Assembly: GCF_038719015.1 (NCBI RefSeq)
Contig: NZ_CP152276.1
Location: forward strand, 4,481,501 to 4,545,500
DNA: 64,000 nucleotides
Direction of reading: 5' to 3'
Source: Nguyenibacter vanlangensis
GTDB taxonomy: Bacteria; Pseudomonadota; Alphaproteobacteria; Acetobacterales; Acetobacteraceae
Shown here: piece by piece, positions 12,925 to 29,096 of the stretch
Layout: the number at the start of each line of letters is the position of its first letter
Numbering within the stretch: the stretch's first letter is position 1
Translations under genes and position numbers: made by a program
Notes under the pieces: generated by a model
The model's database searches: none
What the model was told of the DNA's origin: nothing
Seen by the model: the letters and a program-made list of their open reading frames with translations, nothing else

Positions 12925-13986
12925 TCATGGCAGCCGGCGCAGCCAGCCGCGCACCGTCACCTGCGTGGTCAGCCAGCCGATCAGCGCCGCCGCCGGCGCC
13001 AGCGCCAGCAGCGTCACCACCAGCGGCACCGGCAGCACGGACAGCATCCCCATCCAGCCGCCCCCCATCCAGCCACCTCCCGGCAGGCCCGCCGGGGCAG
13101 GGGGCATGGCGGCGGCCGGCCCGTCGGCGGCAAAGGGCGCCGCCACCCGCGACAGCAGCACCAGCACCGGCAGCGCCAGCACGCTGCCGATCAATCCGCC
13201 CAAACAGGCCAGCAGCGCCGTCCGCCGTGCGAAACGCCCGGCGATATAACCGTCGCTCGCCCCCATGGCATGGATCAGCTCGATCGGCTGGCGCCGCGCC
13301 CCCAGCCCGGCCCGGGTGGTGGCGGCAATCAGCACGATCGCGATCCCTGCCACGATCAGCACCGCCAGGATGGCGCACAGCCGCAAACTGTCCGCCAGCG
13401 CGCCCAGCCGGTCGCTCCACACCGCATTGCGCTCCACCAGCGTGCCGGGCGCAAGCACCTCCAGCCGCCGGGCCAGCGCGGCACTGTCGATCCCGCCGCC
13501 GCCCGGCGCCAGATGCAATTCGATCACCGCCGGCAGCGCCAGGGCGAAATCGCCGTCCCGGCCCAGCCACGGCGCCAGCAGCGCCGTCAGTTCCGCCTTG
13601 CCCAGCCGGTGCACGCCCGACGCGCCCGGCATGTCGGCCAGCGCCGCCAGCACCGCATCCACCCGCGCCGGCGCCCCCGCCGCCCCGACCGCCATCCCTC
13701 CGGCCGGGGCAGGATCAGCCGGGGCAGGGGCGGCGGCATCGTCCGGCTGCGGCACCTGGATGGTCACGATCGACGCCGCCCCGGCCGACCAGCGTTCCGC
13801 CAGCGCCTGCGCCCCGGTCGCCCCGGCCAGCGCCAGCGCCGCCAGCACGGCCATCGCCGCCACCATCAGCGGCAGCAGCCGGTCGGGAATCGCCTTGCGC
13901 AGCGCCAGCCCATCGGCGCGCCGGGCCCGGCTCCATCGCGCCAGCCGTCCGGATTCCGGCCGGTATTCCGACATCCGCTCAGCCAT
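12925..13986 (-). CDS. ftsX: Cell division ABC transporter permease FtsX
   Basis: The 353-residue protein has the FtsX layout: a cytoplasmic N-terminus, TM1 near residues 35-60, a periplasmic domain and three C-terminal TMs (LCAILAVLIVAGIAIVLIAA, LLACLGGLIGSVLALPVLVL, LPVPLVVTLLALAPAAALIG). It overlaps the FtsE ATPase gene by 8 bp. With FtsE it controls peptidoglycan hydrolases at the septum through the periplasmic domain. A proline/glycine-rich insertion with GGGWMGGGWMG, encoded by an 11-nt duplication near 13050-13075, sits in the loop before the last TM; it is unusual and probably recent. Confidence 0.88.
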   Translation of the reverse strand: MAERMSEYRPESGRLARWSRARRADGLALRKAIPDRLLPLMVAAMAVLAALALAGATGAQALAERWSAGAASIVTIQVPQPDDAAAPAPADPAPAGGMAVGAAGAPARVDAVLAALADMPGASGVHRLGKAELTALLAPWLGRDGDFALALPAVIELHLAPGGGGIDSAALARRLEVLAPGTLVERNAVWSDRLGALADSLRLCAILAVLIVAGIAIVLIAATTRAGLGARRQPIELIHAMGASDGYIAGRFARRTALLACLGGLIGSVLALPVLVLLSRVAAPFAADGPAAAMPPAPAGLPGGGWMGGGWMGMLSVLPVPLVVTLLALAPAAALIGWLTTQVTVRGWLRRLP

Positions 13987-14647
13987 CGCGCACCAGCCGG
14001 CCCTGGGCCAGTTCCAGCGCGTGCGCCGGATAGCGGCGGATCAGCGTATCGTTATGGGTGGCCACCACGATGGTGGTGCCCAAACCCGCCAGGTCGCGAA
14101 ACAATTCCATCAGCCGCCCGGCCTGGTACTCGTCCAGCGCATTGGTGGGCTCGTCGGCCAGAATCAGCGCCGGCCGGTGGATCACCGCCCGCGCGATGGC
14201 CACGCGCTGCTGCTCCCCGCCGGAAAGCTGCGGCGGGCGCGACGCCGCCCGCTCGCCCAGCCCCACCCAGTCCAGGATCGCCCGCACCTCGTCGCGGATC
14301 TCGTCCTCGGGCCGGCGCTGCAGGCGCAGCGGCAGCGCGATATTGTCGAAAACCGGCAAATCCGGCAGCAGGCGGAAATCCTGCTGCACGATGCCGATCC
14401 GCCGGCGCAGCCGCGCCAGCGCCGCCCGCCGCGCCCCGTCCACCGCCGCGCCCAGCACCTCCAGCCGCCCCGATGTCGGCCGCGCCCCCAGCGCCAGCAG
14501 CCGCAGCAGGCTGGATTTCCCGGCCCCCGAGGGGCCCAGCAGCCAGCGGAATCCCCCCTGCGGCACGTCGAACGACACCTGCCGCAGCGCCGCGCCGCCC
14601 GGGCCGGCCGTGTCATAGCGAAAACTGACGTCGCGCAGCCGGATCAC
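13979..14647 (-). CDS. ftsE: Cell division ATP-binding protein FtsE
   Basis: The 222-residue ABC ATPase starts at GTG ([12 protein letters not shown]). It has Walker A GPSGAGKS near residue 39, Q-loop [16 protein letters not shown], signature LSGGEQQR near 137, Walker B LILADEPT and the H-loop ATHN. The DNALDE-like stretch after Walker B reads [15 protein letters not shown], as in FtsE. It couples ATP hydrolysis to FtsX conformational change at the divisome. The stop overlaps the ftsX start, so synthesis of the pair is linked. Confidence 0.92.
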
Positions 14648-14668
14648 GCGGGCCGTCCGGACGGGCTC

Positions 14669-15079
14669 TTACATCTCGCGCGCGGCAATGGCGGCCAGGG
14701 TCGCGCAGACCGCGGCGGCGCCCATCATCAGCAGGCCGTCGGTCACCAGCGACCACGCGGTCAGCACATGCGACCCCACCACGATTTCCTGCGGAATGGT
14801 GCCGGCCACATGGGTCACGATGTCACGCGCCTGCGGGTCCGCGGCCGCCGCGCTGGCGCCGATCGCCCCGATCAGGCGCGGCAGCACGCTCCAGCCGACC
14901 CCCAGGATCAGCACCAGCGGCGCCAGCAATTCGGTGACCTGCTGCACGAAATAGAACAGGCAATAGAACACGGCGCACAGCGCCACGCGGACCAGGCGGC
15001 CGATGGCCAGGCGCGACGGCACGCGGCCCGCCGACGGAAGAAACCGCTCGGCGGCACGTCCCGGGTTGAAGCTGTCCAT
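14669..15079 (-). CDS. DUF4389-like small membrane protein
   Basis: A 136-residue protein with a basic N-terminus. One strong hydrophobic segment (LVRVALCAVFYCLFYFVQQV, continuing into LLAPLVLILGVGW) and a C-terminal segment (SLVTDGLLMMGAAAVCATLAAI) are visible. The short YFVQQVTELL style loosely recalls small DUF4389-type membrane proteins, but I do not claim membership. MDSFNPGR is taken as the start because GGAGACG lies ahead of it; an in-frame ATG 27 bp upstream (MHKLPET) is possible. It sits 21 bp upstream of ftsE in the same direction and may share its transcript. Confidence 0.55.
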   Translation of the reverse strand: MDSFNPGRAAERFLPSAGRVPSRLAIGRLVRVALCAVFYCLFYFVQQVTELLAPLVLILGVGWSVLPRLIGAIGASAAAADPQARDIVTHVAGTIPQEIVVGSHVLTAWSLVTDGLLMMGAAAVCATLAAIAAREM

Positions 15080-15217
15080 GACGATCGTCTCCGGCAACTT
15101 ATGCATGGCGTGCCCGCTCTGTCGGGAACGCATCCCTGCCCGAGGTAGCCGTCACTTGTGCTAAATGCAATCTTCGGTGAATACACGATCAGGGAAACCG
15201 CCACGCGTGACAGCATT

Positions 15218-15241
15218 ACAGCGCGCATCACAGCGCGCATC
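15218..15241. repeat. Tandem 12-nt duplication upstream of the che operon
   Basis: ACAGCGCGCATC is repeated twice head to tail about 40 bp ahead of the first cheW start. It lies in what must be the leader or promoter of the chemosensory operon. Similar 12-15-nt tandem copies occur inside several genes in this window. It may be a slippage product rather than a binding site. Confidence 0.6.
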
Positions 15242-15280
15242 GCCGTGGCGGTCATCCGTGTCGGAGGTCATGCAACCGGG

Positions 15281-15847
15281 GTGTCAGGGGCCGTCGTCAT
15301 CTTTCGTCTCGCAAGCACCTGCTATGCCCTGCCGGCGCCGCCGGTGCGGGAATGCATGCCTCTGCCCGCGCTCTTCCGTCCGCCCGGCACGCCGGCCCCC
15401 GTCCTGGGGCATTTCCGCCTGGGGGCCGAACGGGTGGTCGTGGTCGACCTCGCGGTCCTGCTCGGCCTGCGCGCGCCCCCGCCGGACGATGCGCCGCCCG
15501 GCGACACCGATGCCACGCTGCTCTACCGCCCTCTGCTGCTCTGCGACTCCCTTCCCTGCGCTCCCCTGGCACCGCACCGGACGGACCCCGCCGCCCGCGT
15601 GGCCTTCCTGGTCGACGGGGTGCAGGACGTCCGCCCCGCCGCCGCGCCCGCCACCCCCATCCCCGACGACATGGCCGCCGAATGGCTGACGGGGGAAATC
15701 GAACTGCCGGGCGGACGGTCCGCCCTGCTGATGGACCCGGCCCGCCTGCTGCTGGAACGCGAACGGCAGCATCTCGCGCAACTGGCCACGGCCGATTCGG
15801 TGCGCGCCGCCCTGTGGGGTGACGATATCTGGGGTGACGATGTCTGA
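15281..15847 (+). CDS. cheW: CheW-like coupling protein, first gene of the chemosensory operon
   Basis: The 188-residue protein resembles CheW with divergent sequence: VVIFRLASTCYALPAPPVREC is the first strand pair, and HFRLGAERVVVVDLAVLLGL with LLMDPARLL near the end are the hallmark CheW stretches. CheW links receptors to CheA. The start is set at a GTG preceded by GGAGGT about 12 nt upstream, because the upstream part of the open frame has no similarity. The C-terminus ends in a duplicated WGDDIWGDD. It overlaps cheR by 8 bp. In Wsp- and Che3-type systems two CheW proteins occur, as here. Confidence 0.7.
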   Translation: MSGAVVIFRLASTCYALPAPPVRECMPLPALFRPPGTPAPVLGHFRLGAERVVVVDLAVLLGLRAPPPDDAPPGDTDATLLYRPLLLCDSLPCAPLAPHRTDPAARVAFLVDGVQDVRPAAAPATPIPDDMAAEWLTGEIELPGGRSALLMDPARLLLERERQHLAQLATADSVRAALWGDDIWGDDV

Positions 15848-17276
15848 ACGCGGGCGCACCCTGGAACGGCTCGCGGCCCGCATCGTCGCGCGCACCGGCC
15901 TGCATTACTATGCCGACAAGATGGACCTGCTGGACATCATCCTGGCCCGCCGCATGGAAGCCTGCCATTGCGCCCGCCCGATGGATTATCTCTCGCTGCT
16001 CTCCGACCCCCATGGCGGCGAAACCGAATGGCGGGCGCTGGAATCCGCCGTGACGATCGGCGAGACCTTCTTCTTCCGCTACGCCGAGCAGTTCCACGCA
16101 CTCGAAGCCACCATCCTGCCCGACCTGATCCGGCGCCTGCACGGCCTGCGCACCCTGCGGATCTGGAGCGTCGGCTGCGCCAACGGGGCCGAGCCCTACT
16201 CGCTGGCCATCCTGCTGCGCCGCCTCCTCGCCGCGCGGGGCGAGACGGGCTGGCGGATCGAAATCCTCGGCACCGACATCAGCCTCCACGCGCTGGACCG
16301 CGCGCGCCGGGCCGAATACGGCGCCTGGTCCCTGCGCGACCTCTCCCCGGCCGAGCGCGCCCGCTGGTTCCGCCCCGCCGACCGCGACCGGCACTGGATC
16401 CTGCGCGACGAATACCGGCGCATGGTCCGGTTCGAATACGGCAACCTCATGGACCTGTCCGCGGGCGGCGGCCCGGCGGGCCCGTTCGACCTCGTCCTGT
16501 GCCGCAACGTGCTGCTTTATTTCGAGCCCGCCCGCGCGCTGGACCTGATCCGCCTCCTGGCCGGCCGCCTGTCGCCCCATGGCTGGCTGCTGCTGGGCCA
16601 TTCCGACCCGCTGTCGGAATGCGGCGCGTTCCTCGAAACCGTGACCTTCCCGGGCACGCAGGCCTTCCGCCTCCCGGGCACGCGCCTCGGCCCGCCGCCG
16701 CGTCCGCGTCCCGCCGCTTCCGCCTCGGCCCCCGCCCCCGTGCCCGTGCCCGTGCCTGTGCCCGTGCCCCGCCGCCGTCCTTCCGCCGCGCCCGTCATCG
16801 CATGCGCGTCCCTGCGCGACGCAACGGCCGCCGCCGCCGCGGTGCGCGACCTGGCCGAGGCCGGCGCGCTGGACCAGGCGCTCGCGTGCTGCGCCGCCGC
16901 CCTGGCCGACCATCCGCTGGATGCCGGGCTGCATTTCCTCTCCGGCATGCTGGCCGCCGGCGCGGGCGATCCGGCTTCGGCCGAACACGGGTTCCGCCGC
17001 GTAATCTATCTCCGCCGCGACCATGTCATGGCTCATGTCCACCTCGCCCACCTGCTGCACGATTCCGGCCAGGCGGGCGAGGGCAGGCGCCTGCTGCGCC
17101 AGGCCCGCATGCTGCTCGAACGCCTTCCGCCCGATGCCCCGGTCGCCGAAGCCGGCGGCCTGACGGCGGCCGGCCTGCTGCGCCTGATCCGCCCGGACGG
17201 CACCGATCACGATGACGAACTGCCGCAGGCCGACGCGGCGGCAGCACTCCCGGCCCTGCGCGGGACAGGGACATGA
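15840..17276 (+). CDS. cheR: CheR methyltransferase with C-terminal TPR region (WspC-like)
   Basis: The 478-residue protein has the CheR domain in residues 10-280: a helical N-subdomain, ESAVTIGETFFFRYAEQFHA, the SAM motif LRIWSVGCANGAEPYSLAIL, ILGTDISLHALDRAR and DLVLCRNVLLYFE. It methylates glutamates on the chemoreceptor. After a PVPVPVPVPVP linker (about residues 298-308) come helices of TPR type, ALDQALACCAAALADHPLD and AEHGFRRVIYLRRDHVMAHV. A TPR extension marks the WspC/Che3 group and not the flagellar CheR. Start ATG at 15840 overlaps cheW; its stop overlaps the next ATG (ATGA). Confidence 0.9.
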   Translation: MSERGRTLERLAARIVARTGLHYYADKMDLLDIILARRMEACHCARPMDYLSLLSDPHGGETEWRALESAVTIGETFFFRYAEQFHALEATILPDLIRRLHGLRTLRIWSVGCANGAEPYSLAILLRRLLAARGETGWRIEILGTDISLHALDRARRAEYGAWSLRDLSPAERARWFRPADRDRHWILRDEYRRMVRFEYGNLMDLSAGGGPAGPFDLVLCRNVLLYFEPARALDLIRLLAGRLSPHGWLLLGHSDPLSECGAFLETVTFPGTQAFRLPGTRLGPPPRPRPAASASAPAPVPVPVPVPVPRRRPSAAPVIACASLRDATAAAAAVRDLAEAGALDQALACCAAALADHPLDAGLHFLSGMLAAGAGDPASAEHGFRRVIYLRRDHVMAHVHLAHLLHDSGQAGEGRRLLRQARMLLERLPPDAPVAEAGGLTAAGLLRLIRPDGTDHDDELPQADAAAALPALRGTGT

Positions 17277-17851
17277 CCCAGGATACGCCCAGAGACACGC
17301 CCAGAGACACGCCCAGGGACACGCCCCAGGACACATCCCTTGGCCGCGCCACGCTCTACGCGCGCGCCACGATGCAGGAACGCGCCCGCCTGTTCGCCGC
17401 GCGCGGCGAACAGGCGGGCGTCCAGGACGGGCCCCGCCGCTCCGCCGTCATCCTCGACATCGACGGCCAGGGCTACGCCATCGACGTGCCCCATGTGCTG
17501 CGCGTGACCGACCCGGCCTGGTGCGCCATGCCCATGCGGCCCGACTGTCCAGCCGGGGTGCGGGGCGTCTATGGCTATGGCGGCAATCTCTATACAGTGT
17601 TCGACCTGTCGGTCCTGCTGGGCGGCGCGCCGATGCGCGCGGCCGGCACCATGGTGCTGCTGCGCCCGGCGTCCGGCCTGTCGGTCGCGCGTTTCGCCCT
17701 GCTGGCCGGCGCCACGACGGGCGTCGCGGACATCGCGGACGCGTCCGCCGGCCCGTCCACCCCGCACCCCCTGGCCGTCCTGCCGGACGGCCGGGTGGTC
17801 GCGGCGCTCGATCCCGCGCGCCTGTTCGCCGCACGCCATTTCGGAGTCTGA
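17273..17851 (+). CDS. cheW: Second CheW-like coupling protein with an RDTP repeat
   Basis: The 192-residue protein has a CheW domain in residues 58-190: SAVILDIDGQGYAIDVPHVL, GVRGVYGYGGNLYTVFDLSVLLG and a closing VVAALDPARLF. The N-terminus is a tandem array, MTQDTPRDTPRDTPRDTPQD, encoded by imperfect 12-nt repeats at 17282-17333. The rest of the N-terminal extension (ATMQERARLFAARGEQA) is helical and resembles the equivalent of WspD. Its ATG overlaps the cheR stop. It is expected to couple the receptor to CheA as an alternative adaptor. Confidence 0.85.
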   Translation: MTQDTPRDTPRDTPRDTPQDTSLGRATLYARATMQERARLFAARGEQAGVQDGPRRSAVILDIDGQGYAIDVPHVLRVTDPAWCAMPMRPDCPAGVRGVYGYGGNLYTVFDLSVLLGGAPMRAAGTMVLLRPASGLSVARFALLAGATTGVADIADASAGPSTPHPLAVLPDGRVVAALDPARLFAARHFGV

Positions 17852-17857
17852 CCCGCC

Positions 17858-19540
17858 GTGACAATCGCCAATCGCCTGCTGCTCGGATTCATGGTCGGCG
17901 TGATGCTGATGGTCTCCATCGGCGTCTACGCGCTGGGCCAGATCCGCAATGTCCGCGACGAAATGACGGTGATCGTCACCCGCGACCTGTCGGTCTACCG
18001 CCAGCTCAACCATCTGCGCGCGCTGGAAAACGACCTGGTCGCCCGCCGCCTGTCCATCCTCTCCCATTTCTATGCGCGCGATTACGACAAGGGCGGCGTC
18101 GCGCTCGATGCCGCCATCGCCGACTGGGGCGCCGAGGAACGACAGGCCGAGGACACGCTGGTCCAGGCGCTCAGCGACGCCGGCCAGGCGAATGACGAGG
18201 CCCCGGTCGGCGCCCGCCGCGCCATGTTCGCCGCGATTTCCGCGCTGCTCCGCCAGGCGCTGGGCCAGGTCCGCCAGAACGGCCAGTCCGCCGACGAATT
18301 GTTCGCCGCCATCCGCCGGGGGGACGACGCCGCCGTCCGGCTGCAATCGGCCCAGCTCGACGGCCGCGACCAGGCGATCGACCGCCTGGTGACCGAGGCC
18401 GCGACCACGCTGGACGGCGGCGTGCAGGCCGGCGAGGCGCAGAGCGGCGCGTTGTACGAATTCAGCCGCCGCTCGCTCACCCTCGGCCTGGCGGTCGCGG
18501 TCATCGTGGCGCTGATCGTCACTTTCTGGACCCGGCGCTCGATCCTGGCGCCGCTCGCGGCGCTGATGCGGGTGATGGAACTGGTGGGGCAGGGCGATCT
18601 CTCGACCCGCGTGACGGTCAACGGCTCCGGCGTCGGCCGCGACGAGTTCGAACGGCTGGGCCTGGGGCTCAACCGCATGATCGACGGCCTGCGCGAAATC
18701 GCGCAGCAAAGCCGCGAGGCCACGCGCAATCTCGACGCCGCGGTCGCCGACATCCGCGCCTCCGCCCAGCAGCAGGCCGCCAGCGTCGAGGAACAGTTCG
18801 CCGCGGTCCAGGAAACCGCCGCCACGGTCGACCAGATCACCCATTCCGGCGCCCAGATCAGCAAGCGCGCGCGTGAGGTCATCTCGTCGGCCGAAATCAT
18901 CGTCCACAGCTCGGCCAGCGGGCTGGAAGCGGTCGAGGAAACCGCCCGCGCCATGGCCCGCACCCAGGAAGGGGCCGAGGCCGTGGCCCAGAACATCGTG
19001 GCCCTCTCCGAACGCACCGATGCGATCAGCGAGATCATCACCGCCGTCAACGACCTGTCGGAACGCTCGCACCTGCTGGCGCTCAACGCGGCGATCGAGG
19101 CCGCTTCGGCCGGCGAGCACGGGCGCTCCTTCGCCGTGGTGGCCGCGGAAATGAAGATCCTGGCCGACCAGTCGCGCGACGCCACCCAGCATGTGCGCTC
19201 GATCCTCGGCGACATCCAGCGCGGCATCAACACCTCGGTGATGCTGACCGAAGAGGCCGTGAAACGCGTCTCGGCCGGCAAGGAACGCACCGACATCTCC
19301 TATCACACGATCGAGCGCATGACCGGCGGGATCGAGGAAGGCGTGCATGCCTTCCAGCAGATCGTCGCCTCGACCAACCAGCAGCAGATCGGCATCGAAC
19401 AGGTCATGACGGCCCTGCAGAGCATCCGCCAGGCCAGCCAGCAGACGGCCGCCGGCACCCGCAACCTGGAAGCCTCGGCCAGCAATCTCGGCAGCCTGTC
19501 GCACCAGCTCCTGGCCATCTCCGCCCGCTACCGCACCTGA
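17858..19540 (+). CDS. Methyl-accepting chemotaxis protein with 4-helix-bundle sensor
   Basis: The 560-residue receptor has TM1 at about residues 5-27, a periplasmic helical sensor of about 180 residues (4HB_MCP type) and TM2 at 207-225. A HAMP domain follows to about 280, then a long cytoplasmic coiled coil. The signalling tip reads NDLSERSHLLALNAAIEAAS followed by AGEHGRSFAVVAAE, the universal hairpin. There is no C-terminal CheR-binding pentapeptide; the TPR-CheR may dock otherwise. It starts at GTG. Being the only receptor in the operon, it should feed the adjacent CheA. Its ligand cannot be inferred; the sensor lacks a recognisable Cache or PAS domain. Confidence 0.92.
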   Translation: MTIANRLLLGFMVGVMLMVSIGVYALGQIRNVRDEMTVIVTRDLSVYRQLNHLRALENDLVARRLSILSHFYARDYDKGGVALDAAIADWGAEERQAEDTLVQALSDAGQANDEAPVGARRAMFAAISALLRQALGQVRQNGQSADELFAAIRRGDDAAVRLQSAQLDGRDQAIDRLVTEAATTLDGGVQAGEAQSGALYEFSRRSLTLGLAVAVIVALIVTFWTRRSILAPLAALMRVMELVGQGDLSTRVTVNGSGVGRDEFERLGLGLNRMIDGLREIAQQSREATRNLDAAVADIRASAQQQAASVEEQFAAVQETAATVDQITHSGAQISKRAREVISSAEIIVHSSASGLEAVEETARAMARTQEGAEAVAQNIVALSERTDAISEIITAVNDLSERSHLLALNAAIEAASAGEHGRSFAVVAAEMKILADQSRDATQHVRSILGDIQRGINTSVMLTEEAVKRVSAGKERTDISYHTIERMTGGIEEGVHAFQQIVASTNQQQIGIEQVMTALQSIRQASQQTAAGTRNLEASASNLGSLSHQLLAISARYRT

Positions 19541-19545
19541 CGGCC

Positions 19546-21735
19546 GTGGAAAGCCTGCAACAGGAATTGCTGGCGGTCTTTCAGGCCGAATATCGCGACC
19601 ATCTCCGCGTGGTGCGCGACATCCTGGCGGCCGGCCCGCCGGACGCGCACGGCGTGGGCGAAATCTTCCGCCGCGTCCATTCGCTCAAGGGCGCGGCCCG
19701 CGTCGTCGAGCGCGCCGACATCGAATCCATAGCCCATGCGCTGGAAAACCGCCTGTTCCGCCTGACGGACGGACACCAGCCGGCCCAGCCCGACGACATC
19801 GCCGCGATCGGCCGGGCCATGGACCGGATCGACGCCGCCATGCAGGGCGCCCCTCCCGCCCCGCCGCCCGTCTCGTCACCCGCCGTCCCGGGGGGCGAGG
19901 ACGCGGCGGAATCCTACGTGCAGGTCCCGCTCTCGCGCCTCGACGCGCTGTCCGGCGTCCTGCACGACGTCCTGGCCGCCGCCGGCCGGCAGGACCGGCT
20001 CTGGGCCGAACTCGACGACCTCGCCGCCCTGGCCCGCCGCCATGCCGACGCGCCGCCCGCCGACCCGGCGGCCGAACTGGCGCGGCTGACCCGCGCCCTG
20101 TCCGCCCTGTCGCGCGAACGCGGCCGCCTGGCCGGCCAGCTCGACCGCGCCATGCTGCGGATGGACGAGGACATCCGCGCCGTCACCCTGGTCCCCGCCG
20201 GCACGGTCTTCGGCTCCCTGGCCGGCATGGTGCGCCAGATCGCCCGCGAACATGCCCGCGAACACCCCTCCGAGGACGGCGACGGCGAGGTCACGGTCCG
20301 GCTGCTCGGCATGGATGTCCGCGCCGACCGCCGCGTCATGCAGGCCCTGCGCGACCCGGTGATCCACCTGCTGCGCAACGCCATCGTCCACGGGCGGGAA
20401 AGCGCGTCCCGCCGGCGGCAAGCCGGCAAGCCGCCCGTGCCGGTGCTCACATTGTCGGTCCGCATGGTCGGCGTGCGGCTCCTGGTCTCGGTCTCCGACG
20501 ACGGGCGCGGCCCCGACCTCGACGCGATCGCCGCCCGCGCGGCGCAGAAGGGCCTGATCCCCCCCGACACGCAGCCCGACCCCGACACGCTGCTGGCCCT
20601 GGTCTTCGATCCCGGCTTCTCCACCCGGCCCCAGGCCGATCACCTGGCCGGCCGGGGCATGGGCCTCTCGGTGGTGGCCGAGGCCGCGCGCGCCCTGCAC
20701 GGCGCGGTCCGCATGGAGGCCGGCCAACCCGACACCACCCAGCCCGACACCCAGTCCTGGGGCACGACCGTCACGATGTCCGTCCCGGTGTCCAGGCGCC
20801 AGCGCACCACCCTGCTGGTCGAGGCCGGGGGCATGACGGTCGGCCTGCCCGGGCGGGCCATCGAACGGCTGCTGCGCGTGCGCCAGGCCGACCTGCGCGT
20901 GATCGACGGCCGCACCTACATTCCCCTCGCCGACCGCAGCGATTCCGCCGCGCCGCCCGCCGAACCCGCCCTGGTGCCCGTGGTGCCGCTCGCCGCCTTC
21001 CTCGGCCGCCCCGATGCCGCCCCGCCAGTCTCCCTGCCGATCCATGACGGCGCCCTGTCGGTCGCCCTGGTCGCGGCCGAGGGCCTGCGCTGCGGCTTCG
21101 CCGTCGACCGGATGCGCGAGGTGCGGATCCTGCAGATCTCCGACGCCCAGGCGGCCGGGCTGGACAGCGAACTGGCGCCCGGCGTCGGCTGGCCGCGCGG
21201 CGACCGGCCCGTCTTCGTGCTCAGCCCCGACACCCTGCTCGGCCGCTGGAACAAGGGCGGCGCCCCCGGCCCGCGCATCGACGGTCCGCGCCTCGACGGC
21301 CTGCACATCGACGGCCCTCCCGCCGGCCACCGGCCCGCCGAACCCGCCGCCGCGCCACGCCGCCGCGCGCCGACGGTGCTGATCGTTGACGATTCGATTA
21401 CCACACGGACTCTCCAGAAGACGATCCTCCAGACCCACGGCTATGATGTCCTGCTGGCGACCGACGGGGTCGAGGCCCTGTCGACCCTGCGCCGCTCGGC
21501 CCACGGGATCGACGTGATCGTGACGGACGTGGAGATGCCCCGCATGGATGGATTCGCGCTGCTGGACGCCGTCAGGGCCGACCCGCGCCTCTCCTCCATC
21601 CCCGTCGTGCTCATGACCTCGCGGAACGAGGAAACCGACATTCGCCGCGGGCTCGAAGGCGGCGCGCGCGCCTACCTCACCAAACAGGGCTTCGAACAGG
21701 GCGAATTGCTGGACACGATCCGGGGGGTGCTGTGA
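19546..21735 (+). CDS. cheA: CheA-type histidine kinase with C-terminal receiver (WspE/CheA3-like)
   Basis: The 729-residue kinase has an HPt domain with H45 in VHSLKGAAR, a helical P3, and an HATPase. The HATPase boxes are HLLRNAIVHG (about 272), VSDDGRGPDLDAI and GRGMGLSVVAEAARALHG (about 368). A CheW-like P5 and a receiver domain from about 607 complete it. The receiver has the pair LIVDDS, the phospho-Asp in VTDVEMPRMDG, and Lys in YLTKQG. A fused receiver is typical of WspE and of CheA3 of Rhodospirillum centenum, and acts as a phosphate sink or internal switch. It starts at GTG. TQPDTQPD-like repeats lie before the CheW domain. The stop overlaps cheB. Confidence 0.92.
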   Translation: MESLQQELLAVFQAEYRDHLRVVRDILAAGPPDAHGVGEIFRRVHSLKGAARVVERADIESIAHALENRLFRLTDGHQPAQPDDIAAIGRAMDRIDAAMQGAPPAPPPVSSPAVPGGEDAAESYVQVPLSRLDALSGVLHDVLAAAGRQDRLWAELDDLAALARRHADAPPADPAAELARLTRALSALSRERGRLAGQLDRAMLRMDEDIRAVTLVPAGTVFGSLAGMVRQIAREHAREHPSEDGDGEVTVRLLGMDVRADRRVMQALRDPVIHLLRNAIVHGRESASRRRQAGKPPVPVLTLSVRMVGVRLLVSVSDDGRGPDLDAIAARAAQKGLIPPDTQPDPDTLLALVFDPGFSTRPQADHLAGRGMGLSVVAEAARALHGAVRMEAGQPDTTQPDTQSWGTTVTMSVPVSRRQRTTLLVEAGGMTVGLPGRAIERLLRVRQADLRVIDGRTYIPLADRSDSAAPPAEPALVPVVPLAAFLGRPDAAPPVSLPIHDGALSVALVAAEGLRCGFAVDRMREVRILQISDAQAAGLDSELAPGVGWPRGDRPVFVLSPDTLLGRWNKGGAPGPRIDGPRLDGLHIDGPPAGHRPAEPAAAPRRRAPTVLIVDDSITTRTLQKTILQTHGYDVLLATDGVEALSTLRRSAHGIDVIVTDVEMPRMDGFALLDAVRADPRLSSIPVVLMTSRNEETDIRRGLEGGARAYLTKQGFEQGELLDTIRGVL

Positions 21736-22907
21736 ACCACCTCCTCGTTGCGCCGCCCCGGGTCCGCGTGCTGGTGGTCGAGGACTCCGCCGTCATCCGC
21801 CAGGTCATGGTCCGGCTGGTCCGCGGCGACCCGCGCCTGGAACTGATCGAAGCCGTCGAAACGGCCGAGGAGGCGCTGCGCCTGGTCCCCCGCCTGCGGC
21901 CCGACGTGATCTCGATGGATGTGCGCCTGCCCGGCATGGACGGTCTTGCGGCGACCCGGCGCATCATGGCGGAATGCCCCACGCCGATCGTCATCGTCTG
22001 CGACGCCTCGACCGACCCGGCCCTGCGCATCTCGATGGACGCCCTGCGCTCGGGCGCGCTGTCGGTGGTCGAAAAGCCGGCCGGCTGGCCGTCCGGTGCA
22101 TCCGGCACCGCGATCGCGACGCAATTGTACATCATGAGCCAGGTGCCCGTGATCCGCCGCCGCGTGGCCCCGGTAACGATGGCCCCCGAGACAATGACAC
22201 CCGGGACGATGACGCCAGGGATGATGCCTCCAGAGGCCGCCCCTCCCGCCCTGCTCCCCGTGCCGCGCCGGCTGCGCCCGCGCCTCGTCGCCATGGCCGC
22301 CTCGACCGGCGGCCCGCAGGCATTCTCCCACATCGTGGGCGCGCTGCCCGCCGATTTCCCTTGGCCGATCCTCCTCGTCCAGCATATGGGCGCCGGCTTC
22401 ATGGAGGGATTCGCCGCCTGGCTGGCCACCCAGACCCCGCTTTCGGTCGGCCTCGCCCGGCAGGGCGAGGCCCTGCGTCCCGGCCACATCCATGTCGCCC
22501 CCGCCGAAACCCACCTGATGCTGGGCGGCCATGACGAAATCCGCCTGTCCGGCGCACCTCCCCTGGGCGGGCAGCGCCCGGCGGCGAACGCGCTCTTCTC
22601 GTCGCTGACCCGCATGGGGGGCGGGGCCATGGGCGTACTCCTCACCGGCATGGGCGAGGACGGGGCCACCGGCCTGCGCGACCTGCGCCGCGCCGGCGCC
22701 TACACGATCGTCGAGGACCGCAGCACCTCCATCGTCCACGGCATGCCCGGTGCCGCCGAACGCCTCGGCGCGGCCAGCGTCAGCCTGCCGCTCGGCCAGA
22801 TCGCCCCCCACCTCGTCGCCATCGCCGCCGCCTCGCGCGTCCCGCACGCCGTCTCCCATGTCGATTCCCATGCCGAGAGCGGCACGACCGGGGACGCGCC
22901 GGCATGA
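21732..22907 (+). CDS. cheB: CheB receiver-methylesterase
   Basis: The 391-residue protein has an N-terminal receiver (LVVEDSAVIRQVM, SMDVRLPGMDG) and a C-terminal methylesterase. The catalytic triad is visible: Ser in AASTGG (about 190), His in LVQHMG (about 217) and Asp in TGMGEDGA (about 308). It demethylates receptor glutamates. The linker carries a tandem MTPGTMTPG repeat. It begins at GTG overlapping the cheA stop, and its stop overlaps the next start. It corresponds to WspF/CheB3. Confidence 0.93.
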   Translation: MNHLLVAPPRVRVLVVEDSAVIRQVMVRLVRGDPRLELIEAVETAEEALRLVPRLRPDVISMDVRLPGMDGLAATRRIMAECPTPIVIVCDASTDPALRISMDALRSGALSVVEKPAGWPSGASGTAIATQLYIMSQVPVIRRRVAPVTMAPETMTPGTMTPGMMPPEAAPPALLPVPRRLRPRLVAMAASTGGPQAFSHIVGALPADFPWPILLVQHMGAGFMEGFAAWLATQTPLSVGLARQGEALRPGHIHVAPAETHLMLGGHDEIRLSGAPPLGGQRPAANALFSSLTRMGGGAMGVLLTGMGEDGATGLRDLRRAGAYTIVEDRSTSIVHGMPGAAERLGAASVSLPLGQIAPHLVAIAAASRVPHAVSHVDSHAESGTTGDAPA

Positions 22908-24901
22908 CCGCGCCCCCGCAACCGGCCCAGCAACAGGCCCCGCAGCCGACCCTGCTGCTGGTCGAGGATTCCGACACCCAGGCGCTGCGCATCCGCCGCA
23001 TGCTCGAAGGCCACGGCTTCACCGTCAGCCGCGTCGCCAGCGGCGAGGCCGCGCTGGACTCGCTCGATGCCCGCATCCCCGACCTGGTGGTGGCCGATTA
23101 CCACCTGCCGGGAATGAATGGCGGCCAGATGGCCCGCCAGCTCCGCATGAGCCCGGTCACCCGCATGATCCCCGTGCTGATGCTGACCGAGGGCGGCGAA
23201 CCAGGGCTCGAGCGCGAGGGCCTGGAAAGCGGCGCCGACGCCTACGTGCCCAAATCCGCCGATCCGGACCTGATCGTCTTCCGCATCCGCGCCCTGCTGC
23301 GCGAGGGCGCCGGGACCGGCCCGCGCGACGACAGCCCCCTGTTCCGCCGCGCGCGGATCCTGGTGGTCGGCGGCGACGGCGCGCCCGGCCGCGACGTCGC
23401 CTCCCTGGCCGCCCTGATGCGCTCCGACGGGCACGACGTCATGGTGGCGCCGCACCCCTCCGCCGTGGACCGGCAGAGCTGGCTGGACGCGGCGCGCGGC
23501 CCCGACTGCGTGGTGGTCGACCTGGTCTCCGGCCGGTTCGACGGCATCGCCTTCTGCCGCGAACTGGACGATCTGCGGCAGAAAATCGTGGTGGGCGGCG
23601 CCGTCCCGCCACGCATCCTCGGGCTCAGCGGCGGCCAGGCCGCGCGCGGCGCCCTCTCCGCCCGCGCGTTCGAGGCCGGGGTGGACGATCTGGTCTCCGA
23701 CGATGTCGAGCCCGAAATGCTCGCCCTGCGCATCCGCGCCCTGCTGCGCCGCAAGCTGCTGCAGGACGAGGCCAGGCGCATCGACCATGAACGCCAGGCG
23801 CGCGAGATCGCGGTCGAGACCGCCCGCGCCGAGGCCGCCGCCATCGCGTCCAAGGCGTCGCTGGCCGGCGCGCTGGAACAGGCCAACACCGAACTGGCCG
23901 CCGCCAACCGCAAGCTGATCGAAACCCAGAGCAAGCTGGTCCAGACCGCGAAGATGGCCTCGCTGGGCGAGCTGGTCGCCGGGATCGCGCACGAAATCAA
24001 CAATCCGCTCGCCTTCATCCTGGCGCACAAGGACACGGTCGCCCGCCTGCTGGCCCAGGTGATCGACGCCGAGAAGGACGCACCCGAGAACGACATGTCC
24101 GGGGACGGCGCATCCCCCGCTGCCGCCTCGGCCGCCGCCGAACGCCGCGCCGCGCTGGCGAAATGCCGCGACCGGGTGGAATCGATGAATCTCGGCCTGC
24201 GCCGCATCCAGAACCTGGTGGTGAACCTGCGCAAATTCTCCCGCCTGGACGAGGGCCAGTTCCAGGTCATCGACGTGCCCGAGGCGCTCGAGACCGTGCT
24301 CGCCCTGCTGACCCAGAAATTCGGCGGCCATATCGCGGTCGAACGGAACTATCGCGCGCCCGACCGGCTCTATTGCCAGTCCGCGCTGCTCAACCAGGTG
24401 ATCATGAACATCATCAGCAACGCGGCCGACGCCATCCTCTCCATGACCGACCAGTCCGCTGCCGCCCCCGGCGCCCCCATATCCGCCGCATCCATGCCCG
24501 CCGGCCTGATCAGCATCGGCACCGAACTGCGCGCCGCCAGCGATCGACCAAACGGCGATCGACAAAACGGCGATCGCCAGAACGGGGGCGATCGCCAGAC
24601 CTACGTCTTCACCATCCGCGACAACGGCCCCGGCATCCCCCCGGACATGAAGGAACGGGTCTTCGAGCCCTTCTTCACCACCAAGCCCGTCGGGGCCGGC
24701 ACCGGCCTGGGGCTCGCCATCGCCTATGGCGTGGTGCAGGCCCATCACGGCACGATCACCGCCACCGACGCGCCGGGCGGCGGCACCCTCTTCACCGTCG
24801 CGGTGCCCTGGCAGCCCGAACTGGCGGCGCTCCCCGATCCCGGGGCCCATCCCGAGGCCATGCCGCCCCCCAGCCCCGTCGGCGCGGGGGCCCCCGCATG
24901 A
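22904..24901 (+). CDS. Histidine kinase with two N-terminal receiver domains (CheS3-like)
   Basis: The 665-residue protein has a receiver at residues 17-135 ([33 protein letters not shown]). A second receiver-like domain at about 148-280 starts [11 protein letters not shown], so the acidic pair is lost although [12 protein letters not shown] keeps a possible Asp. Then follow a coiled coil, a HisKA with H in [18 protein letters not shown] (about 362) and an HATPase ending [20 protein letters not shown]. Two N-terminal receivers before a kinase match CheS3, the partner of CheA3 in Rhodospirillum centenum. [17 protein letters not shown] repeat lies in the ATP-binding domain. The next gene starts inside its stop (ATGA). 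Confidence 0.88.
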
Positions 24902-26910
24902 CGGCCCGCCCCGTCGTCCTCCTGGTCGATGACGAACCCGAAATCCTCGTGGCCCTCACCGACCTGCTCGAGGATTCGTTCACGATCCTCTCCACCACCT
25001 CGCCGGCCGAGGCCCTGGACATCCTGGCCCGCCGCCCGGATGTCGACGTCATCGTCTCCGACCAGCGCATGCCGGAAATGGGCGGCGACGTCATGCTGGC
25101 CCGCGCCCGCGCCTTCTGCGACGCCCAGGCGATCCTGCTGACCGGCTACGCCGACATCGGCGCCGTCGCCGCGGCGCTGAACCAGGGCCGCATCTCGTTC
25201 TATTCGCACAAGCCCTGGGACGGCGACGCCCTGCGCGCGATGATCGTCCAGGCCGCCCACCGCCACCGGCTGGAAGGCGAACTGCACACCGAACGCATGC
25301 TGCTGCACGGGCTGCTCCGGAACCTGCGCTCCGGCCTGGCCTTCAAGGACCCCCAGGGCCGCTTCATCCGCATCAACCGCCAGGCCGCCGCCTTCTACGG
25401 CCGGGACGAGGCCGCCTGCCTCGGCCAGCGCGAGGAAGACCTGACCGACCCCGCCCAGCTCCCCGCCCTGCGTGCCGCCGAGGCCCGGATGGCCGCCGAG
25501 GGCAAGGACGAGGACGTCATCGCCTTTCCCACGCCCGGCGGCGGCACGGTCTGGCGCGAATTCACCCGCGCGCGGCTCGACGCCAATCCGGGTGCCACTC
25601 CGGGCGCCAATCCGGGCGTCGGCTCCCACTCGGTGCTGATCAATCGCGACATCACCCGCCAGCGGGAAATGGAGGCCCGCCTCCGCCAAGCCGAGAAGAT
25701 GCAGGCCCTTGGCACCATGGCCGGCGGCATCGCCCATGATTTCAACAATCTGCTGACGGCGGTGATGGGCTCGCTGGAACTCGCCGCCGACACCGGCCCC
25801 CCGCTCGATTCCCGCACGGCCCGCCTGCTCGACAACGCGATGGCCGCGGCCCGGCGCGGCGCGGACCTGACCCGCCGGCTGCTGAATTTCAGCCGCCCGC
25901 GCGACCTCTCCCTGCAGCCGGTCGACGTCAACGCCCTGCTGCGGAACATGCGCGACCTGCTGATGCAGGCCGTCACCGCCCGCCGCCGCGACGGCGCCGC
26001 ACCGCGCATGCCCTTCGCCATCGACGTGGGCGGCCTGGCGCCCGACGGCACCCTGCCGCCCGCCCGGACCGACGCCGGACAGCTCGAACTCGCGCTGCTC
26101 AATCTGTGCATCAATGCCGGCGACGCCATGCCCGACGGCGGCACGATCGCGCTCTCGACCCGCCCCATACATATCGACGGCCCACATATCGACGGCCCGC
26201 CTGTCGACAACCCGCCTGTCGACACGCCGCACGGCGACGGCCCGCGCATCGGCGATTCGGCCAGGGGCGACCTCGCGCCCGGCCCCTACGTGGTCGTCTC
26301 GGTCGCCGACCAGGGCACCGGCATGTCCCCCGAAACCCTGGCCCGCATCTTCGAACCCTTCTTCACCACCAAGGATGTCGGCCGCGGCACCGGGCTGGGC
26401 CTGTCGATGATCTACGGCTTCATCCGCCATGTCGGTGGCGACGTCCGCGTCTCCAGCACCCTGGGGCAGGGGACGCGGGTCGATCTCTATCTGCCCGTCC
26501 AGCAGGACGCCGCCACCCCCGCGCCGCCGCCGCCCCCCGACCCCCCCGCGCCGCGCGGCCTGCTGGCGCTGGTGGTCGATGACGAGGACGCGGTCCGCGC
26601 GGTCACCGCCGGCTTCCTGCGCGGCATGGGCCACCGCACGATCGAGGCGACGGGCGGCGAGGCCGCCCTGTCCCGCCTCTCCGACATGGAACCCGACATC
26701 CCCGACCTCGTGGTGATGGACGTCATGATGCCCCGGATGGGCGGCGAGGAAGCCGCCCGCCGCATCCGCGCCCGCTATCCGGGCACCCCCATCCTGTTCC
26801 TGACCGGCTACGCCGACAATGCCGACCTGCCAGCCGACGCCCTGATCCTGCGCAAGCCGTTCACACAGGCCGAACTGTCCGAATACATAGCCCGCGCCAT
26901 AGGATCATAA
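24898..26910 (+). CDS. Hybrid histidine kinase, REC-PAS-HisKA-HATPase-REC
   Basis: The 670-residue protein opens with a receiver ([41 protein letters not shown]). A PAS domain ([20 protein letters not shown], then [16 protein letters not shown]) is at about 135-245, and HisKA follows with H in [16 protein letters not shown] (about 279). The HATPase contains an [19 protein letters not shown] repeat insert and ends [21 protein letters not shown] final receiver at about 557-670 has [12 protein letters not shown]. It probably ends the phosphorelay that starts at CheA. The start overlaps the preceding stop. No DNA-binding or GGDEF output is present in the operon. Confidence 0.9.
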
Positions 26911-26914
26911 ACGG

Positions 26915-27076
26915 CGGTGGGGTCGTAAACGCGGGCTGGTGGCGATCCGACGCGGCTTTGCTGCGCTTCGCTGCTCACGGCCCACAAGGCCGCTGCGCTG
27001 CGATGCTCGCAAACCCACGCCGGCCGTGCCGCTGCGCGGCACTCTCGCTCACCAGCCCACGTTTCCGACCCCACCG
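26915..27076. repeat. Long inverted repeat after the chemosensory operon
   Basis: A 27-bp arm at 26915-26941 and its inverted partner at 27050-27076 match at 25 of 27 positions and enclose about 108 bp of GC-rich sequence. The left arm starts CGGTGGGGTCGTAAACG. It sits between the last chemosensory gene and hslV and could end transcription, or it could be a copy of a dispersed non-coding element. No protein-coding signal was found inside. Confidence 0.7.
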
Positions 27077-27080
27077 CGGC

Positions 27081-27140
27081 CCGGGGCATGAAGCGCGCCG
27101 TTTGCGCCACTTCGTGACGCTCCGGCGCGGCATTCCCCGG
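27081..27140. repeat. Second inverted repeat ahead of hslV
   Basis: CCGGGGCATGAAGCGCGCCG at 27081-27100 pairs with CGGCGCGGCATTCCCCGG at 27123-27140, with a bulge. It lies 46 bp upstream of the hslV start. Together with the larger inverted repeat just before it, the whole 230-bp gap is built from paired arms, suggesting a mobile or structural element; a role in the hslVU leader is also possible. Confidence 0.6.
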
Positions 27141-27186
27141 CTGTCCACCCTTGTCCTGCGCGGCGGACGGCTTATCTGTTCCAGTC

Positions 27187-27780
27187 ATGCAGACCATACA
27201 CAGCACCCACCATGATCCCATCGGCTGGCACGGGACGACCATCCTGTGCGTGCGCCGCGGCCGCCAGGTGGCCATGGCCGGCGACGGCCAGGTGACGCTC
27301 GGCAACACCGTCATCAAGGGCAATGCCCGCAAGGTCCGGCGCATCGGCCCGGCGGGCGAGATCCTGGCCGGCTTCGCCGGCGCCACCGCCGACGCCTTCA
27401 CCCTGCTCGAACGGCTCGAGGCCAAGCTCGAACGTTTCCCCAACCAGCTCGAACGCGCCTGCGTCGAACTGGCCAAGGACTGGCGCACCGACCGCTATCT
27501 CCGCCGGCTCGAGGCGATGATGGCCGTGGCCGACCGCGAACGCGCCTTCACCCTCACCGGCAACGGCGATGTGCTGGAACCCGAGGACGGGATCATCGCT
27601 ATCGGCTCCGGCGGCAATTACGCGCTCTCCGCCGCCCGCGCCCTGGCCGAAATCGACGGGCTGTCGGCCGCCGACATCGCGCGCCGCGCCATGCGCATCG
27701 CCGGCGAGATCTGCGTCTTCACCAATCATTCCGTGATCCTGGAAACATTGGGCCAGGATACGGACGAGGCCAAAGCGTAA
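27187..27780 (+). CDS. hslV: ATP-dependent protease peptidase subunit HslV
   Basis: The 197-residue protein is the Ntn-hydrolase subunit of the HslUV protease. After a 16-residue propeptide it reads [20 protein letters not shown], so Thr17 should become the N-terminal nucleophile, and the conserved [16 protein letters not shown] and [14 protein letters not shown] follow. The ATG at 27187 was chosen over one 36 bp upstream because it gives the short leader usual in alphaproteobacteria. HslV forms a double hexamer that degrades unfolded proteins delivered by HslU. Its stop overlaps the hslU start (TAATG). Confidence 0.95.
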
Positions 27781-29096
27781 TGGACGTCCCCAACCATTCC
27801 CCCCGTGAAATCGTCTCGGAACTCGACCGCTTCATCATCGGCCAGGCCGACGCCAAGCGCGCCGTCGCGATCGCGCTGCGCAACCGCTGGCGCCGCGCGC
27901 AGCTCCCCGAGGGGATGCGCGACGAGGTCGTGCCGAAGAACATCCTGATGATCGGCCCCACCGGCTGCGGCAAGACCGAGATCGCCCGCCGCCTGGCCCG
28001 CCTGGCCCAGGCCCCGTTCCTCAAGGTCGAAGCCACCAAGTTCACCGAGGTCGGCTATGTCGGCCGCGACGTGGAAAGCATCATCCGCGACCTCGTCGAG
28101 GTCTCGCTGACCATGCTGCGCGACCTGCGCCGGCGCGACGTGCAGGCCCGCGCCGAGCACGCCGCCGAAAACCGCCTGGTCGACGCCCTGGTGGGCGAGG
28201 GCGCGTCGGCCGACACCAAGGGCAAGTTCCGCCGCATGCTCCGCCAGGGCGAGCTTGAGGACAAGGAGGTCGAGATCGCCGTCGCCGACACCCAGGGGGC
28301 GGCGGCGCTCGGCGACCTGCCGAACATGACCCCGGGCACGGTGATCAATTTCTCCGACATGATGAAGGGGCTGATGAACCGCGTGCCCCAGCGCCGCCGC
28401 ATGAGCGTCGCCGCCGCGCGCGAGGCCCTGACGCGTGAGGAAGCGGACAAGATGCTCGACAACGACGCGCTGACCCGCGAAGCCGTCGCGCACGCCCAGG
28501 ATCACGGCATCGTCTTCCTCGACGAGATCGACAAGGTCTGCGCCCGCTCCTCGGAAAGCGGATTCCGCGGCGGCGACGTCTCCCGAGAAGGCGTACAGCG
28601 CGACCTGCTGCCGCTGATCGAGGGCACGACGGTCTCGACCAAATACGGGCCGGTCAAGACCGACCATATCCTCTTCATCGCCTCGGGCGCGTTCCATATC
28701 GCCAAGCCCTCCGACCTGCTGCCCGAACTGCAGGGCCGCCTGCCGATCCGCGTCGAACTCGCGCCGCTGACCCGTGAGGATTTGCGCCGCATCCTGACCG
28801 AGCCCGAACATTCGCTGCTCAAGCAATATACCGCCCTGATGGAAACCGAGGGCGTCACCCTCGATTTCTCCGACGGCGCGGTGGACGCCCTGTCCGAACT
28901 CGCCGCCGACATCAACGAACGGATCGAGAATATCGGCGCGCGCCGCCTGGCCACGGTGCTCGAACGCATGCTCGAGGACGTGTCCTTCTCCGCCGCCGAC
29001 CGCTCCGGCCAGACCGTGCGCATCACCGCCGCCGACGTGCAGGACAAGGTCGCCCCCCTGGCCCGAAAGGGCGACCTCAGCCGCTTCATCCTCTAA
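27780..29096 (+). CDS. hslU: ATPase subunit HslU (ClpY)
   Basis: The 438-residue AAA+ protein starts [20 protein letters not shown]. It has Walker [18 protein letters not shown] near residue 58, the pore-loop region [10 protein letters not shown] and Walker [10 protein letters not shown] near 244. The sensor-2 [15 protein letters not shown] and the conserved C-terminal LSRFIL engage HslV. It unfolds substrates with ATP and feeds them to HslV. The length is close to the E. coli protein. The gene follows hslV with a one-base overlap. Confidence 0.95.

Follow-up and report, generated by a model that had tools for sequence, protein, structure and literature searches.

The window analysed here, a 64,000-nucleotide stretch of the Nguyenibacter vanlangensis genome (contig NZ_CP152276.1), carries on its + strand eight open reading frames (ORFs) between positions 15281 and 26910, in the order cheW-cheR-cheW-mcp-cheA(REC)-cheB-HK1-HK2. 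We propose that they encode a Che3-type, non-flagellar chemosensory array in which CheA probably signals to the first receiver of the kinase HK1 (REC1, residue D65), HK1 to the kinase HK2, and HK2 to an unlinked regulator. The conserved core of this locus is the kinase pair rather than the array; HK1-HK2 is independent of the array, and the state of REC1 follows that of the array. An earlier note on this DNA described a Che3/Wsp-type operon with two kinases at its end, and overlooked that the pair is its more conserved part, persisting where the array is absent. The genes and their domains are as follows.

15281-15847, + strand: cheW1, array coupling protein (Pfam CheW, 53 bits); the start is uncertain, the ORF being open from 15158.
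15819-17276, + strand: cheR, receptor methyltransferase, repeat-like by eye towards its C-terminus (Pfam CheR, 157 bits).
17273-17851, + strand: cheW2 (Pfam CheW, 28 bits).
17858-19540, + strand: mcp, chemoreceptor (Pfam HAMP and MCPsignal, and a weak 4HB_MCP_1 sensor match).
19546-21735, + strand: cheA with a C-terminal receiver (Pfam Hpt with H45, HATPase, CheW, and REC with D661).
21732-22907, + strand: cheB, receptor methylesterase with a receiver (Pfam REC and CheB_methylest).
22904-24901, + strand: HK1, CheS-like kinase (REC1 with D65, degenerate REC2, HisKA with H363, HATPase).
24898-26910, + strand: HK2, kinase (REC with D55, PAS, CckA-like HisKA with H280, HATPase, C-terminal REC with D608).
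27151-27780, + strand: hslV-like gene (Pfam Proteasome), followed by an hslU-like gene; a conserved downstream neighbour, outside the proposed pathway.

The distribution of these genes was followed in 397 genomes of the same family, taking a match at E 1e-80 as HK1 and a match to the MCP at E 1e-100 as presence of the array. HK1 was present in 128 of the 397 genomes, and an HK2 match adjoined it in all 128 (127 fetched loci, plus the window for its own genome). The array MCP was found in 72 of the 397, every one of them among the HK1-bearing genomes, and 56 genomes carried HK1-HK2 without it. At the MCP-bearing locus of genus g48 only mcp and cheA were matched, and in one genome (G009) HK1 sits at a contig end. 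In the wider class, HK1 was matched at E 1e-80 in 8 of 385 genomes, two of which belong to the window's own family; of the six outside the family, three are strong matches.

The five REC1 residues E21, D22, D65, T95 and K117 were all intact in 71 of the 72 MCP-bearing genomes vs 2 of the 56 MCP-less genomes. The sole MCP-bearing exception, L226, has HK1 split in two pieces, and the MCP-less set includes a broken row, L148. Like L210 and L123, these two rows have broken or split frames; all four were kept in the above counts but do not enter the tree, the step counts or the identity table. On an HK2 tree of 63 rows (at most four genomes per genus; four rows are named loci), the five REC1 sites change 25 times in the 25 array-less rows and 0 times in the 34 array-bearing rows of the family. 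Five sites of the HK2 N-terminal receiver change 0 and 2 times in the array-less and array-bearing rows, respectively, and HK1 H363 as well as HK2 H280, D11, D12, D55 and K105 show no change in either set. The identity table, limited to two genomes per genus, compares pairs of similar kinase-core identity. Where the core identity was 0.6-0.7, REC1 identity was 0.68 with the array (153 pairs) and 0.54 without it (35 pairs), and the corresponding values for the HK2 receiver were 0.62 and 0.65. Where it was 0.5-0.6, REC1 identity was 0.66 with the array (9 pairs) and 0.42 without it (73 pairs). One genome (G021) has no che match in the 11 kb upstream of HK1-HK2 and its MCP on another contig, and there REC1 is intact. 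Since REC1 is intact with the array and decayed without it, the array appears to place REC1 under constraint. This natural array knock-out points to a step from CheA to REC1 of HK1, and then from HK1 to HK2.

Some results weigh against this proposal. Among pairs with a core identity of 0.7-0.8, REC1 identity is 0.79 with the array vs 0.77 without it. On the tree, two changes of array state suffice, and these are too few to give a paired sign test (median p 0.5) any power. REC1 is intact in two MCP-less genera, g23 and g79, each represented by a single genome. In addition, REC1 decay is relaxed constraint and is not proof of phosphotransfer. Finally, the HK2 C-terminal receiver is missing from 10 of the 68 rows whose locus has the array and from 13 of the 55 whose locus lacks it (some of these are broken frames), so it is not an obligatory relay step.

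A precedent exists in Rhodospirillum centenum, where, according to the relevant passages of PMC3868531, CheA3 phosphorylates the first receiver, REC1, of CheS3, the second (REC2) being degenerate, and CheY3 is phosphorylated by CheS3~P only. Like the Che3 system of those passages, the window's locus has a receptor, two CheW proteins, CheR, CheA with a receiver, CheB, and a kinase with REC1 and a degenerate REC2. Unlike CheS3, HK1 has a HisKA and not an HWE domain, and no PAS domain; unlike the R. centenum cluster, the locus has no cheY, and the REC-PAS-kinase-REC gene HK2 stands in the possible place of cheY3. Because the receivers of HK1 are laid out as in CheS3 and HK2 occupies the possible CheY position, we propose the route from array to CheA, REC1, HK1 and HK2. 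In this scheme we infer which way the phosphate flows, that HK1 acts on HK2, and what the last recipient is. The receptor, the two CheWs and CheA would build the array, and CheR and CheB would adapt it, as their families suggest. CheA would direct its output to D65 of HK1 rather than to a CheY, as CheA3 does to CheS3; its own receiver may serve as a sink, and that of CheB as feedback. HK1 would then act on HK2, most simply by phosphorylating D55 of the N-terminal receiver, and HK2 would hand the signal to a regulator whose gene lies outside the locus. In favor of this route, a Hyphomonadaceae metagenome-assembled genome encodes a single 793-residue protein (L008:13140-15521) in which HK1-type receivers are fused to an HK2-type PAS-kinase-receiver part.

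It is possible, though we consider it the less probable case, that HK1 and HK2 are parallel modulators with cytosolic signals of their own, the array only tuning HK1 and HK1 not phosphorylating HK2. The persistence of HK1-HK2 in the 56 MCP-less genomes and the PAS domain of HK2 would fit such an arrangement, and so would the behavior of HK1 REC2, which, opposite to REC1, shows the higher identity where the array is missing (0.59 vs 0.38 where it is present, at a core identity of 0.6-0.7). However, HK2 D55 is conserved in every ungapped row and needs a phosphodonor, and HK1 is its constant neighbor.

The eight-gene order described in the earlier note is confirmed: neighboring ORFs of the array unit overlap or lie at most 6 bases apart, all are open, and their Pfam domains match. 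A sigma-70 scan of positions 14600-27300 gave no promoter-like sites, and terminator-like sites numbered 4 vs 2.6 expected. Two residues of what we take to be the S-adenosylmethionine motif of CheR are kept in 61 of 61 aligned rows. The C-terminus of CheR, described in the earlier note as TPR, looks TPR-like to the eye, and Pfam finds no TPR there at E 0.001. In CheA, H45 is kept in 65 of 68 rows (the other three are gaps) and D661 in all 68; in CheB, the putative catalytic Ser, His and Asp are present in 69 of 69 rows and the receiver Asp in 67 (one Glu, one gap). The HisKA of HK1 scores 26.8 bits in Pfam, slightly below the cut-off of 26.9, and its HATPase is matched; Pfam shows neither a PAS nor an HWE-type kinase domain in HK1. 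REC2 is invisible to Pfam, and a profile-profile comparison with hhalign matches it to REC1 (97.8% probability, E 7.6e-13). The earlier note's two hybrid kinases need a correction here: in HK1, receivers are found at the N-terminus alone, the second being degenerate.

Both kinases directly follow cheB in the output position, as had been reported. Since the gene after HK2 is a Proteasome match, which we presume to be hslV, no cheY follows the cluster, and the genome's 13 GGDEF matches include none at the locus, in agreement with the earlier claim that the CheY or GGDEF output is missing. The other CheR and CheW-domain matches of the genome lie only at 3.503-3.505 Mb, in a second che cluster beside ORFs that, read by eye, are presumably flhB, fliR, flagellin and fliG. 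The locus in the window could be a second swimming or chemotaxis array, its CheA reaching the flagellar motor by way of a CheY from another part of the genome, with HK1-HK2 simply lying next to it. The genome does hold flagellar genes and the separate che cluster, it could encode a free CheY elsewhere, and FliG was matched in 50 of the 72 MCP-bearing genomes. But the other 22 MCP-bearing genomes have no FliG match (11 of 13 in g60, 4 of 4 in g73, and seven in g53, g17, g1 and g4), counting as negative the HK1-bearing genomes absent among 310 FliG positives. Moreover, REC1 conservation tracks the array and not FliG, which is present in 39 of the 56 MCP-less genomes, with REC1 intact in 2 of the 56. 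We conclude that a swimming role is improbable; the FliG distribution disfavors it, and the earlier suggestion of a non-flagellar system is borne out by this distribution and by the separate che cluster near the flagellar genes.

The locus could also be a true Wsp system with its diguanylate cyclase encoded elsewhere, the array controlling c-di-GMP and cellulose. Wsp likewise combines a CheA bearing a receiver with two CheWs and CheB, in a gene order that differs from that of the array locus, and the 13 GGDEF matches could supply a cyclase. However, Pfam found no GGDEF domain at the locus or in the proteins that fill the kinase slot at the alphaproteobacterial loci scanned, and all 72 MCP-bearing genomes also carry HK1-HK2. 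A CheA tree (34 rows, quick method) places the window's protein among alphaproteobacteria, in a set of 13 rows (support 100) that also holds Azospirillum, Geminicoccus and Microvirga. Two pseudomonad CheAs lie outside this set, and a REC-GGDEF-EAL protein follows one of them. Wsp identity, very improbable in our estimate, was rejected on the lack of a WspR-type output gene at the locus and on this different CheA branch. Of the likeness to Che3 and Wsp originally drawn, the Che3 part stands and the Wsp part does not.

A scan of contigs with CheA gave at least 558 relatives, and the best 80 of them were retained; among these 80, the nearest named CheA is that of Komagataeibacter intermedius, consistent with the acetic-acid-type host named in the earlier note. 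Its MCP is 74% identical to that of the window. All eight genes are found in order in K. intermedius, where hslV- and hslU-like genes also lie downstream, and in two Microvirga (L005 and L063). Seven genes in order are found in a third Microvirga (L006), in Acidisoma and in Sphingomonas sp. Leaf32, cheW2 being unmatched at 1e-5; the HK2 of Acidisoma has no last receiver. Because the order is conserved in other genera, the array unit is not a chance arrangement. The kinase slot is more varied elsewhere: in Crenalkalicoccus a GTPase follows cheB in place of HK1, in Geminicoccus (L011:3243-6503) the slot protein combines receivers with HisKA, HATPase and Hpt, and in Azospirillum a HisKA-HATPase-REC kinase follows, preceded in L013 by a separate receiver protein. 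No gene after HK2 common to all compared genera was seen.

For the regulator that would receive the signal from HK2, known relays were considered. The kinase part of HK2 matches CckA models best, as in the CckA-ChpT-CtrA relay, but its best NCBIfam match, CckA, reaches 309 bits, far below the cut-off of 1000, and HK2 differs from CckA in its N-terminal receiver. In a six-frame search no protein in any of 80 genomes exceeded the 1000-bit CckA cut-off, and the window's genome gave no match at 1e-50. ChpT (PF10090) was matched at E 0.001 in 28 of the 80 genomes, 26 of them above the cut-off, and the window's genome was not among the matches. None of the 37 acetic-acid-type genomes, that is, those of the 80 in genera of a 39-row clade of the HK2 tree, had a ChpT above the cut-off; the sub-cut-off matches in G390 (20.4 bits) and G009 (20.6 bits) lie at the position of their own HK2 gene. 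The phospho-accepting Asp of CtrA is replaced in all eight acetic-acid-type genomes from which CtrA was recovered, by Glu in seven and Ala in one (L259, L328-L331 and L333-L335; the window's own genome is not among them). By contrast, G102, which has a ChpT match, keeps the Asp (L336); a ninth candidate region (G149) is another regulator. CtrA acting via ChpT was rejected as the target of HK2 on these two grounds, the lack of ChpT above the cut-off and the loss of the CtrA Asp.

The remaining regulators were narrowed down in G334, a 1.9-Mb, MCP-less genome with HK1-HK2. Its receiver matches number 12, HK1 and HK2 accounting for two, and of its 12 HATPase matches we take four to be GyrB, ParE, MutL and HtpG. 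Pairing of kinases by adjacency and by reading, with names assigned by eye, presumably accounts for PhoB-, NtrX- and ChvI-type regulators, two OmpR-type regulators and a flagellar CheY/CheB set. What remains is HK1, HK2, a CtrA homologue (272 bits vs a curated cut-off of 350, with Ala at the phospho-Asp position) and an intact OmpR-type regulator. By elimination, this last protein is the likeliest, though unproven, HK2 target in G334. We presume that this OmpR-type orphan regulator (L308) is CenR-like, a label that is unconfirmed: NCBIfam, a protein search and the PDB gave no CenR. The protein search found 7994 relatives among 8000 scored; the best 120 of them carry generic or mtrA-like names, and many are from Acetobacter and Asaia. 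The best solved structure is MtrA.

An orthologue of this regulator (at least 57% identity) is present in 14 of 14 HK1-bearing genomes tested, that of the query among them. Of the eight HK1-less genomes tested, five also have it, and the other three (G066, G029 and G210) have neither HK1 nor the regulator. In the window's genome it lies at G000:C1:476944-477624, and no kinase was seen among the ORFs beside the gene. CenR is an envelope regulator; its kinase CenK occurs in several alphaproteobacteria, and Brucella is without an evident CenK, according to the passages available of PMC9275681 and PMC10746171. Of 19 loci, one had the box TGA-N8-TGA, reported for Rhodobacter in a passage of PMC9275681, upstream of the CenR-like gene; the array operon has no such box upstream. 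The locus resembles CenK-CenR through an orphan regulator presumed to be CenR-like, linked to HK2 by elimination only. A chain from array to HK1, HK2 and CenR, with a sheddable array mounted on a two-kinase module that drives a CenR-type envelope regulator, is a tentative and rather unlikely extension of the proposed route, made less probable because the name finds no support in NCBIfam, the protein search or the PDB. If true, HK1-HK2 would be the CenR kinase in acetic-acid-type bacteria, and chemoreceptors would control cell-wall and envelope genes.

The gene content of the locus has been known since 2009 and 2015. In the relevant passages, the Gluconacetobacter diazotrophicus Pal5 report of 2009 describes a pair of neighboring hybrid kinases that seem to share an operon with chemotaxis genes and hslUV (PMC2765452), and the Komagataeibacter xylinus E25 report of 2015 lists cheW, MCP, cheA, cheB and two kinases, raised in connection with the ethylene response (PMC4686702); those passages contain no analysis of mechanism, distribution or receivers. 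A literature search over the titles and abstract openings of the papers listed, with few subscription journals, found no description of the HK1-HK2 module or of receiver decay; the distribution of the pair and the REC1 decay are new here. The wire from CheA to the cell is often unknown in non-flagellar systems, and array loss seen over 128 genomes points to one receiver of a partner kinase as that wire. The CheA3-CheS3 result, known from one species, would thereby apply to a wider layout in alphaproteobacteria and yield predictions for single residues, testable in non-pathogenic bacteria such as cellulose and vinegar makers.

Other features of these genomes were recorded. In the window, the array unit is flanked by ftsE/ftsX-like genes (12925-14647) and hslV/hslU-like genes (27151-29096), and in several genomes of the family both pairs flank HK1-HK2 whether the array is there or not. 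A gene for a YkuD L,D-transpeptidase adjoins the CenR-like regulator in three Pfam-checked loci (L301, L308 and L309); this short protein is similar in size to a 171-residue Gluconobacter oxydans enzyme described in a passage of PMC10727944. In genus g31, a weak, divergent CheB match lies upstream of HK1 in three MCP-less genomes (L128:9859-10992, L153 and L231), and was checked by Pfam in one of them. A reduced genome of the same genus, G210 (1.7 Mb), is without HK1-HK2 and without the CenR-like regulator, unlike the 12 other g31 genomes sampled, which carry HK1-HK2.

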